From positions 62,001-126,000 of the IMG/VR virus record IMGVR_UViG_3300027793_000052: a DNA stretch of 64,000 nucleotides. The stretch is one strand, 5' to 3'. Shown here in pieces: positions 20,445 to 48,379 of this stretch. The notes under the pieces were generated by a model. That model was given only the letters and a program-made list of their open reading frames with translations, was not told the DNA's origin and made no database searches. Position 1 is the first letter of the stretch, and every line of letters begins with the position of its first letter. Source of the stretch: a virus. The translations under genes were made by a program, and so were the position numbers.

Positions 20445-20449
20445 AAATT

Positions 20450-20740
20450 TGGAACAAGATTTGTACTGGATGGCCGGCCTATGGGGACCCCCTGTATAGC
20501 CCCCCGGCGGGGGTGCCCGTATCCCCCCTCCCCCTCTGGGAGGGTCTGCGGGGTAGAAAGCGGGGTTCGGTTCCCCATTCATATCCGGGACCTGGTGGCA
20601 AAATTTTCCGGGAAAAATTTAAGCCAAAAAAGCGTTCCTAAAATTCCGGGAAAAATTGTCTAGAAAAAGGACCCCACCCCCTACATAGTTAAAAACCTAT
20701 TCCGGAATTTCCGGGAAAAAATTCACCCATATTTGTTTCT
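20450..20740. other. GC-rich non-coding island with CCGGGAAAAATT repeats
   Basis: About 290 bp with long C and G runs (GACCCCCTG, GCCCCCCGGCGGGGGTG, CCCCCCTCCCCCTCTGGGAGGG), in a genome otherwise below about 35% GC. The right half holds three copies of TTCCGGGAAAAATT (near 20606, 20644, 20709). No gene. Composition suggests a foreign insert or a cis-acting DNA site. Confidence 0.6.
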
Positions 20741-20755
20741 CTATATGGGAATTAT

Positions 20756-20763
20756 TATATTTG
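20756..20763 (+). promoter_or_regulatory. TATATTTG -7 box, near-leaderless
   Basis: TATATTTG ends 4 nt before the ATG at 20768 and follows the GC-rich island. Confidence 0.7.
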
Positions 20764-20767
20764 TGTT

Positions 20768-44939: not shown

Positions 44940-45179
44940 ATGGAAAATAAAGAAATGGTAAATCACCCGCAACATTATGGTGGTAAAGATAATAAATATG
45001 AGGCAATTAAAGTAATAGACGCGTGGGGTTTGGGGTTTTCTTTAGGAAATACCGTAAAATACATATCTAGAGCAGGTAAAAAGAACCAAGAAAAGGAGTT
45101 AGAAGACCTTAAAAAGGCATTATGGTACTTAAATCACCATATCCAAACATTAGAGAGTAAACTGAAAGAAAATTCGTGA
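44940..45179 (+). CDS. DUF3310 protein
   Basis: 79 residues: VNHPQHYGG, YEAIKVIDAWGLGFSLGNTVKYISRAGKK in pieces, then EDLKKALWYLNHHI. This is the DUF3310 family, common in phages and suspected of a nucleotide-metabolism role. Soluble and short. Confidence 0.9.
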   Translation: MENKEMVNHPQHYGGKDNKYEAIKVIDAWGLGFSLGNTVKYISRAGKKNQEKELEDLKKALWYLNHHIQTLESKLKENS

Positions 45180-45182
45180 TAT

Positions 45183-46868
45183 TTAATCACCCCACACCCA
45201 TTTTTTATTACCACAATCCCAAATAATGTTGTAACCACGTTCATACATTATTTGTTTTTCAGTCTTATTCGGATCATAACCATCTTTAATTAATTTATCT
45301 TTCCTAAAATTATATCTGTGCATTCTAACCAAGTCTTTGAAATACCAATAATTTAATTCGGTATTTTTTAAAAATTTAAAGCCCAATTTTTCATATAAAC
45401 CACCATCAAAATACCTGTTATCGGAATAAGATACGACATTTTTTGGTTTATAATTTTGTATGAAATGTCCGAACAATTTTGAAGCCCCACCAACTATTTT
45501 TGTGTTTAATTTATTACAAAATCTTAACATCTCATATTCATAATTGTTGTTACCCACACCTGAACGATTACCGAATGTCATAACAGAAACCAATTCGTCT
45601 TTATAATATAAACCCAAATTTATAGACGCGTTAACAGACCCTTGAATGTGGTTATTACCCAAAAATTTCGATGATTCTTTATTGGTTATTGTTTTTATAA
45701 CACACTTTCTTGCGAATATATTGGTATCGAATATGTTTAAATTAGCTTTTATAATAGATAATACAATATCTTTTTTAAATAACCACTCATCTTCAAAAAT
45801 ATGTAATAGTTTAATATTTTTATCTTTACATAATAACGTCTTATTTATGTGATATGTTTTACTTTTATTTATTTCACTATGCCAATACAATCCATCATAT
45901 TCTATGGCTAAATTTTTCTGCGGTATGAAAATATCCAATTCACAACCACCGAGTATCTTTTTATTATTAATCTCAACTAACATCCCAGTCAAATTCTCTA
46001 TATAACTAACAATATCTCTATGTGGTTTGGTGTAGTTTGATCCGTTAAGTGGGAAACAATTGATGCATATTTCATACCCCAACCTATTTCTTTGATTAAA
46101 TAAATAATTGTCTATTTTAAAAATTTTGTCACATTTATCACATTTTAATGTTAATACTTTATTTTCGTAATCAATAAAAGTATACCCACTGAAATTATTT
46201 AATTTATCTATTATTTTGTTTTTAAAAATCACATTTTTAAACTCTTCACTTTGTGAGTAGTTCTCTACATTAAATTTTGTTAAATTAGTTTTTTTAGATT
46301 TTTCTTTAACTTCTTCTAACTGAAAAGGGTTTGATACGCCGTATTTTTTAATAAGATTCTCTTTTCTTAAATTCTTTATATCGTCAGAATACCAATGGTG
46401 GGTAAAACCGTATCTTTCTAAATTAGTTTTTTTTACTTTATTTTTTATTTCATCATTATGTAAACTACATGTTACACCATACTTTTCTAAATTAGTTTTT
46501 TTTACTTTATTTTTTATTTCATCATTTCTTAAAGGACTTGTTACACCATATTTTTTTACATTAGTTTCCTTTATTTTATTTTTAGTATTTTGGTTATTTA
46601 CACCACATTTTATAGAACAGTTTTTATTATAACCCTTTTTTAGTGAGATAAATTTCACATCATTTACCCCACAAACCTCACATTTAGGTGGTTTGTTAGT
46701 ATTATTTATATATAAATAAATTTTCTCTTTAAAAGTTAAGCTGTCTTCTTTATTGAAGTTTATTATTTTTGAGTATAAATCGTAGTTATTGTCCCGTAAC
46801 CAACTTTCTCTAACCCTAAGACCGTTATTATTTTCAGTAAAATAATCCAGTAAATTTATATTATCCAT
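45183..46868 (-). CDS. Large homing endonuclease (Vsr/EDxHD-like with repeats)
   Basis: 561 residues from ATG 46868. N-terminus has CEVCG...C-S-I-K-C zinc-like pairs, then tandem repeats TNLEKYGVTCSLHNDEIKN (four to five copies, a NUMOD-like DNA-binding array). A central nuclease core reads CELDIFIPQKNLAIEYDGLYW then LLHIFEDEWLFKK, as in Vsr-type homing endonucleases of phages. The C-terminus has HIQGSVNASINLGL. It lies head-to-head with the disrupted DHH gene, about 190 bp from the insertion there. Confidence 0.85.
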   Translation of the reverse strand: MDNINLLDYFTENNNGLRVRESWLRDNNYDLYSKIINFNKEDSLTFKEKIYLYINNTNKPPKCEVCGVNDVKFISLKKGYNKNCSIKCGVNNQNTKNKIKETNVKKYGVTSPLRNDEIKNKVKKTNLEKYGVTCSLHNDEIKNKVKKTNLERYGFTHHWYSDDIKNLRKENLIKKYGVSNPFQLEEVKEKSKKTNLTKFNVENYSQSEEFKNVIFKNKIIDKLNNFSGYTFIDYENKVLTLKCDKCDKIFKIDNYLFNQRNRLGYEICINCFPLNGSNYTKPHRDIVSYIENLTGMLVEINNKKILGGCELDIFIPQKNLAIEYDGLYWHSEINKSKTYHINKTLLCKDKNIKLLHIFEDEWLFKKDIVLSIIKANLNIFDTNIFARKCVIKTITNKESSKFLGNNHIQGSVNASINLGLYYKDELVSVMTFGNRSGVGNNNYEYEMLRFCNKLNTKIVGGASKLFGHFIQNYKPKNVVSYSDNRYFDGGLYEKLGFKFLKNTELNYWYFKDLVRMHRYNFRKDKLIKDGYDPNKTEKQIMYERGYNIIWDCGNKKWVWGD

Positions 46869-46943
46869 ATTGTATGACTTATTTATCAATAAATATATTC
46901 ATTTTTAGCCAAAGTCAAATATTTATTTAAAAAAGTGTAAATA

Positions 46944-48379
46944 ATGATAATATCAGAAAAAATATTTGAAAAGATCCTGATAGAAAGTGGAATACGTAAT
47001 ATACGTAATTTGTCTTATAGATACGATAAGGCAAAAATCTACTTTCATCAGGATCTTTGAGGGAACTTGATGGTGTTACAACGGCTATAGCTATGAAAAA
47101 ATACCTAGAAGATAACGGTATTAAGGTTGTAGAGTGTGAAGTGATACAATACGGTGACCAAGAATTTTCCATTAAAAAACCAATGGCAAGAGGTGATATC
47201 ATGCCAGTTTTAGTTGACTTCGCTCACGGTAAACCGATGTTTGTTATACATACAGATCATCACGATAAGCAAGTAGGTGCTGAAGCTGGAGCTTCCAAAT
47301 CATTTAGACACTCTAGGTCCAACGTCGAGACAATTTCTCAAATAATATCAACTAAAGAATTATTCCCTAGTTTTGATATTAATATGATTTCCACTATAGA
47401 TAGTGCTAATTACGCTAAAATGGGTATATCTCCTGAACAGGTGATGAATTATGTATTTGGGTTAGATAAAGAGAAAAGTTTAGAGGATAACAAAAAGGCT
47501 ATGGCTCTTGTTTGTAATAAACTTTTGTTGGCTTATAAAAACAAACCAAGATTTTTAGAAAGATTGGTTATGGAATCTAGTCCATCATTGTTAAACATAT
47601 ACCAAAACATAGTTAGAATGGCTAAAGAAGAGGGTTATTCCTCACCAGAGGTTATGTCACAATATTCTAAAGAATATGGTGAAACTATGAAGAATAGTGA
47701 AAATGTGAAATATGATGAAAAAACAGGTATTATTTCACAATATGGTGGTGGTTCTATGATTAAACCCGGATCTTATGACAGATACGTACCTTTTAAAAAC
47801 TTTCCTGACGCTAACTTCTTAATTATAGCTTGGCCTTTAGGTTTACTACAGGCATCATGTAACCCATTTAAACCTGAAAGGTCTATAAAGGGTATAAATT
47901 TGGGTGAAATAGCACAGGAAGTATTAAAAAAACACGAACAGGAGTTAAAAAACACAATAATAAGTGTAGACACTTTAAAATACTTCGCCGAAAAACACAA
48001 ATCTTTTTCAGAGGAGAGTGTTGGTTTTACATTTAAAGATTTAATGTCACTATATGGTGATATTGGTGAAGGTGTTAGGGGTTTAAACACAATTCCAGAA
48101 GGTGCCGCACCTGATTATACGGTTGAAAGATGGCAAAACGCTATAAAAAATGTGATGGACAAACATTACTCAACTTTGGGTGAAAGAGAAATTAAGGCAT
48201 TAAAAATGTTGTCTATAACTGGTTGGGATATTATCCAAGCAAACAGTGGGGGACACAAATGTATAACTAACATATCGGGGTTAATGTATTTCGGCAAGGA
48301 TGGTGTTCTTTGGCTTAAAAAATTACAATCCGAATTTATTGAAGAATTAAAAAACTTAATATTACAAAATGAAAACTAA
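46944..48379 (+). CDS. DHH-family phosphoesterase interrupted by an 11-nt insertion (bypass candidate)
   Basis: The frame from ATG 46944 encodes 38 residues (EKIFEKILIESGIRNIRN then KIYFHQDL) and stops TGA at 47058. A second frame resumes as DGVTTAIAMKKYL from 47069. Joined, HQDLDGVTT makes DHH motif I (HxDxDG); VDFAHG and HTDHHD follow as motifs II and III. The whole protein would be about 474 residues. The leader I-L-I-E-S is cargo-like. Take-off CTT 47055-47057 and landing CTT 47066-47068 suggest translational bypass. DHH enzymes hydrolyse short RNA or DNA. Confidence 0.75.
46970..47068 (+). other. Putative ribosomal bypass element
   Basis: A near-perfect stem pairs 46970-46988 (AAAGATCCTGATAGAAAGT) with 47041-47058 (ACTTTCATCAGGATCTTT), one bulged base. 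It ends on the take-off codon CTT, which is followed by stop TGA and, 8 nt on, by landing codon CTT. Between the arms CTTAT-AGATACG-ATAAG forms an inner hairpin. Confidence 0.5.

Follow-up and report, generated by a model that had tools for sequence, protein, structure and literature searches.

How is an enzyme made from a gene that is broken by a stop codon between two of its catalytic residues? This question is raised by a locus in a 64,000-nucleotide (nt) stretch of phage DNA, positions 62,001 to 126,000 of IMG/VR record IMGVR_UViG_3300027793_000052 (hereafter the window), the carrier phage record being 318 kb in length. Here, a DHH phosphoesterase gene on the plus strand is divided into two open reading frames (ORFs) by a CTT-TGA-8 nt-CTT interruption that falls between the two catalytic Asp codons of DHH motif I. 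ORF1 (46944-47057) comprises the N-terminal 38 codons (MIISEKIFEKILIESGIRNIRNLSYRYDKAKIYFHQDL), from the ATG at 46944 to a last codon CTT at 47055-47057 (Leu37). Eight nucleotides not found in intact relatives follow (47058-47065, TGAGGGAA), beginning with the stop codon TGA (47058-47060), and then an identical CTT (47066-47068), the first CTN codon downstream. Directly after it, GATGGTGTTACA (GAT GGT GTT ACA, from 47069) starts a frame open to 48379, and this ORF2 (47069-48379) holds the remainder of the gene, from motif I residue D38 to the stop. When 11 nt are omitted, namely the 8 nt and the second CTT, HQDLDGVTT is restored; interruption-free relatives read KIYFHQDLDGVTT across the motif. 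Taken together, the sequence features make it very likely that the interruption is crossed by programmed translational bypassing, with the first CTT serving as take-off codon and the second as landing codon.

The break itself is well established. It is present in three IMG/VR records of 318 kb, 132 kb, and 50 kb, and assembly error is excluded because the three assemblies agree on it. The 132-kb record overlaps both ends of the 318-kb record and differs from it by one base in 116 kb, and the 50-kb record is identical to it; being near-clonal, the three are counted as one phage. A first-pass annotation of the window had placed the break in motif I, located the CTT, TGA, and CTT, and pointed out the restored HQDLDGVTT, with all coordinates correct to the base. 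Reading of TGA as a sense codon was ruled out, since a TAG lies ten codons on in that frame.

The gene is a DHH phosphoesterase, as judged from its motifs and from fold comparison. D36, D38, D87, D100-H-H, D148, and GGH are invariant in a 23-sequence alignment, with D36 and D38 flanking the interrupted leucine, and Foldseek comparison of a moderate model returned DhhP and RecJ (E 1e-5 to 1e-3, probability 0.93-1.0, low TM-scores); the gene product had no Pfam match at E 0.001. The C-terminal 29 residues of ORF1 align without gaps to those of intact relatives. Past the insert, dN/dS is 0.075 relative to the closest relative, L004, and the polarised changes on the window branch are 26 synonymous and 4 nonsynonymous, so that ORF2 is under strong purifying selection. 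The annotation had proposed an alignment with insert-free homologues as a check, and in this comparison the motif is uninterrupted in 235 of 238 loci, the remaining three being two copies of this phage and a locus termed L332; among the first 80 relatives fetched, only the two copies of this phage are interrupted. CTT is itself uncommon at the take-off position in intact relatives (10 of 138 sites). Apparent N-terminal breaks in L065, L068, and L070 proved to be merely non-ATG (GTG) starts, and LR745206, matched in two pieces, has an in-frame insertion and no break.

The decisive evidence comes from two other carriers. A search using a related clade recovered L332, which is broken at the same residue (GATCTT TGACGGGT CTT GATGGT), and the deeply diverged L476 is a further carrier (GACCTT TGACGATG CTT GATGGC), those of its own relatives that were found and span the site being intact. 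In a scan for the pattern Asp-Leu-stop, 8-nt gap, Leu-Asp-Gly-Val-Thr, 12 viral stretches were found, of which the DHH ones are only this phage (twice), L332, and L476; the bacterial matches look like chance, and a looser scan gave no DHH relatives among the matches listed. Constant in all three carriers are the CTT take-off codon, the TGA, the 8-nt spacing, and the CTT landing codon, with ORF1 residues conserved through HQDL/HIDL, whereas the gap letters differ. Because two distantly related viruses carry the same layout at the same codon, the interruption looks like a genuine skipping device that is mobile, and not like the mark of a broken gene. The annotation had named the same 11 nt recurring in homologues as random decay as an observation that would speak against ribosome hopping; the opposite was found, the letters having diverged and the layout having been kept.

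A second conserved feature is a long RNA stem within ORF1, on the plus strand. Its 5′ arm (46971-46991, with a bulged base at 46982) and its 3′ arm (47038-47057, ending on the take-off codon) are predicted to form 20 base pairs with one bulge, and 46970-47058 is a possible 21st pair; the fold also places two inner hairpins between the arms (46993-47035). The 17-18-bp stem with one bulge on the take-off codon that the annotation had described is thus real, its length alone needing correction to 20-21 bp. The RNA of 46944-47080 has a predicted energy of −44.7 kcal/mol, compared with a mean of −20.2 kcal/mol for dinucleotide shuffles, none of 200 being as stable (z −8.05), and of 3000 recodings that preserve the protein and follow the phage's own codon usage, again none is as stable (z −8.3). 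In 12 intact relatives this region is unremarkable (z −2.0 to +1.5) and devoid of the long stem, a shorter inner stem being present in the intact L030. Both arms encode consensus residues through rare codons; among 207 leucine codons of the genes sampled, for example, 3 are CTG. Furthermore, of the 371 sites in the 318-kb phage genome at which a codon is followed by a stop and, further on, by the same codon, the window element takes first place. When 4998 such candidates from 3.47 Mb were scanned blind, ranks 1, 2, and 4 went to the three DHH elements. By these folding estimates, the stability of the stem is far beyond what the protein sequence or the base composition would lead one to expect, and is not a product of chance. 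The recoding test did not flag T4 gene 60, run as a control (z −0.5); a strong coding stem is therefore not required for bypassing, and what the test demonstrates is that the window stem is unusual. No Rfam match was obtained in the element region or the whole window. Scans of endonuclease loci, the whole phage genome, and all collected loci gave no further convincing element, and the genome-wide scan of the 318-kb phage no second bypass-like site of comparable strength.

The stem is preserved in the other carriers. Its predicted energies are −38.6, −39.2, and −38.5 kcal/mol in the window, L332, and L476, respectively, with recoding z values of −8.3, −7.5, and −7.3. In the gap-free alignment of the carriers, 95% of the outer-stem cells are paired, compared with 30-50% when the partner is slid by one to three columns, and intact relatives can form 7-13 of the 20 pairs. 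L476 shows four compensatory pair changes, from A-U to G-C (twice), from C-G to A-U, and from G-C to U-A, which involve both arms of the window stem. The proposal of programmed ribosome hopping is supported by the retention of layout and stem in L332 and L476, the varying gap letters, and these compensatory changes; the joined product is what we infer from them.

In the proposed mechanism, with CTT in the P site the ribosome would stall at the weakly read UGA, and the peptidyl-tRNA-Leu would unpair. ORF1 mRNA outside the ribosome would zip into the long stem, pulling the mRNA 5′-ward; the peptidyl-tRNA would re-pair at the first cognate CTT, 11 nt on, and translation would resume at GAT to give an uninterrupted HQDLDGVTT protein. 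The inner hairpins are predicted to contribute −9 to −15.5 kcal/mol before the outer stem is able to form. On the assumption that a ribosome with CTT in its P site hides about 15 nt of the mRNA upstream, the emerged RNA of the window would go from −15.5 to −28.0 kcal/mol after the 11-nt movement, a predicted gain of 12.5 kcal/mol; the corresponding gains are 10.2 kcal/mol for L332 and 5.6 kcal/mol for L476, and 0 to 5.6 kcal/mol for intact relatives. These gains fit the motor role published for the 5′ stem-loop of T4 (PMC5009743, PMC11194080). A Shine-Dalgarno-like GAGGG 5′ of the landing codon, a type of signal that is minor in T4, occurs in the window only and is not conserved, and a reading based on it was dropped. 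The gene starts of the phage have A-rich leaders and no Shine-Dalgarno signal, which suggests a Bacteroidota-like host. The phage carries 22 tRNA genes (G000:C1:2410-21688); Leu(UAG) and Leu(UAA) are among them, Leu(GAG) is not, and its own Leu(UAG) tRNA could be the reader of the take-off CUU.

Could the two ORFs instead be translated separately? In an improbable alternative, termination at the TGA would be followed by restart at the overlapping in-frame TTG (47057, TTGA overlap), making this a split gene with a shorter product, MRELDGVTT..., perhaps coupled to ORF1 by the stem. A stop-overlapping in-frame TTG is indeed present in all three carriers, and the stem would conceal such a start until ORF1 is translated. 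However, the restart products would carry E, G, or M in place of the invariant catalytic Asp36, the conservation of ORF1 extends up to HQDL/HIDL, the start would lie inside a 20-bp stem in a phage that makes no use of Shine-Dalgarno sequences, and the identity of the second CTT with the first in every carrier would be left unexplained.

Ribosomal frameshifting at CUU UGA is a highly improbable account, according to which a −1 or +2 shift, either of which does enter the ORF2 frame, would add LREL or REL (3-4 residues) inside motif I. CUU UGA C is the conserved site of the release factor 2 (RF2) +1 shift (PMC5009743), but in every carrier this favoured +1 shift meets a stop no more than three codons on; the codon reached by a −1 shift, UCU or CCU, is not slippery for a CUU-decoding tRNA, the +2 shift gives UUG, and the extra, non-conserved residues would stand between two catalytic aspartates. 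Plain decay, in which a recent insertion through repair of an endonuclease break left a mutation-made palindrome of no function, can draw on the near-clonality of the copies of this phage and on the ability of mutation to perfect imperfect coding palindromes, L030 already having the shorter inner stem, but is the least credible reading given that the layout recurs in L332 and L476 with gap letters that have diverged and stem changes that are compensatory, that the arms still encode consensus residues through rare codons, and that synonymous changes exceed nonsynonymous ones by 26 to 4.

With programmed bypassing as the preferred reading, the distribution of the element points to mobility, which, like the neighbouring homing endonuclease gene, is missing from the first-pass annotation. 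In a tree of the post-gap part, the carriers occupy three places, each among intact sisters; well-supported branches force three changes, with long branches making the precise position of L476 uncertain. Over its 87 nt, the element of the window has 91% identity to that of L332, compared with 77% over the next 150 nt, whereas the window and its sister L004 are 69% identical over the element and 84% over the next 150 nt. The excess identity over the element shows that it moved horizontally, with transfer between phages at least between the window and L332 lineages. The part from the ATG to the gap in the window is closer to L030-type genes and less L004-like than the post-gap part, a pattern that marks a transferred segment with its end close to the gap.

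The homing endonuclease gene (45183-46889, minus strand; PHROG 3339, E 1.9e-135) lies between the DHH gene and a DUF3310 gene (44940-45179, plus strand), the latter directly preceding the DHH gene in relatives without an endonuclease gene here. Its insertion junctions are recognizable by comparison: the insert is 1.7 kb in the window, and the DUF3310-DHH spacing is about 30 nt in L003/L004. In L476, a probable endonuclease ORF overlaps the start of the DHH gene (PHROG 681, E 3.4e-8) and a homing-endonuclease-like ORF lies downstream (PHROG 559, E 4.5e-26), so that endonuclease genes adjoin two of the three carrier copies (the window and, probably, L476). Relatives of the window endonuclease are located directly 3′ of intact DHH genes in L003/L004 (L003 2213-3664) and L017 (5315-6493), indicating that the surroundings of the DHH gene are a repeated insertion place. 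Three further members of this homing endonuclease gene family are present in the phage (G000:C1:144927-145775, 223023-224606, and 232321-233871), and within the window endonuclease gene there is an offset self-match (46407-46590; 115 nt, 85% identical) with repeated KKYGVT...NDEIKNK units. The element would be a mobile cassette, its spread accompanying or being caused by homing endonucleases whose conserved-motif target the insert disrupts; this endonuclease-protection model is one that we infer by analogy with the T4 gene 60 insert.

Several points weigh against bypassing by such a cassette. The zipping gain of L476 (5.6 kcal/mol) does not exceed the gain of one intact relative, no common A-site hairpin is found at the 8-nt gap across the three carriers, L332 has no endonuclease gene directly adjoining its DHH gene, and the window and L332 share one element ancestor, leaving at most two independent lineages. 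The fullest form of the proposal is one to which we give an even chance: the elements would be short, mobile bypass cassettes of one family, for whose selection or spread homing endonucleases with catalytic DxDG motif DNA as their target are responsible. Re-zipping of the ORF1 stem would be the main motor of the 11-nt slide, and the cassettes would have arisen or moved on two or more occasions among huge phages, of which one or more apparently translate without Shine-Dalgarno sequences.

Bypassing in phages has had a single established example, T4 gene 60, for which no natural variants were known in its relatives (2010 review, PMC3014915). The DHH element resembles it in the matched codons, the adjacent stop, the 5′ stem-loop, an upstream endonuclease gene in the window (mobA in T4), and a site in a catalytic acidic motif (TDADHDG in T4). 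It differs in the gap (50 nt in T4 and 11 nt here), the codons (GGA and CTT, respectively), the gene (topoisomerase and DHH phosphoesterase, respectively), the lack of a conserved A-site hairpin, a far stronger 5′ stem (recoding z −8.3 here, −0.5 in T4), and the existence of natural variants. A nascent-peptide signal is essential for bypassing in T4. At the level of sequence, the element possesses the core features of T4-type bypassing, with the exception of the A-site hairpin. Short inserts that are skipped in translation and regarded as mobile are also found in the mitochondria of Magnusiomyces capitatus, according to accounts citing Nosek 2015 (PMC5009743, PMC8211752). These byps, unlike the DHH element, are mitochondrial, with 81 copies in one genome, and they seem not to depend on mRNA context and to match codons less strictly (PMC5009743), in contrast to the long stem and exact codon match here. 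Another phage gene with a short coding gap is tied to UUA decoding (PMC5009743), whereas the present insert stands beside an endonuclease gene. Finally, the take-off CUU UGA, with a C as the next letter in L332 and L476, is identical to the +1 site CUU UGA C of RF2 (prfB), a context of weak termination (PMC5009743); here, a ribosome shifting by +1 would meet a stop within three codons, and the codon has no conserved stimulatory Shine-Dalgarno sequence upstream of it.

Other structured RNA was observed in the phage. A GC-rich island at window positions 20445-20767 (about 49%, compared with about 30% around it) contains no ORF of at least 80 amino acids and is possibly a new structured non-coding RNA; no other 114-nt segment of the phage genome is predicted to fold as stably as 20465-20578 within it (−57.8 kcal/mol), and no Rfam match was obtained. 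About 1.2 kb before the window, a long near-perfect stem (G000:C1:60793-60906, −48.7 kcal/mol) lies outside ORFs of more than 80 amino acids.

The annotation had called the system short (11 nt) and new, and this assessment stands: judged against the open-access literature, T4-type bypassing with a shorter gap, in a new gene and with natural variants, is new. The three natural variants of this second, shorter system at one catalytic codon, with compensatory evolution and many intact counterparts, make several questions testable, namely which signals are needed, whether the 5′ stem acts as a motor, and whether a bypass insert protects its gene from homing endonucleases. Seemingly broken phage genes in metagenomes can be recoded genes.
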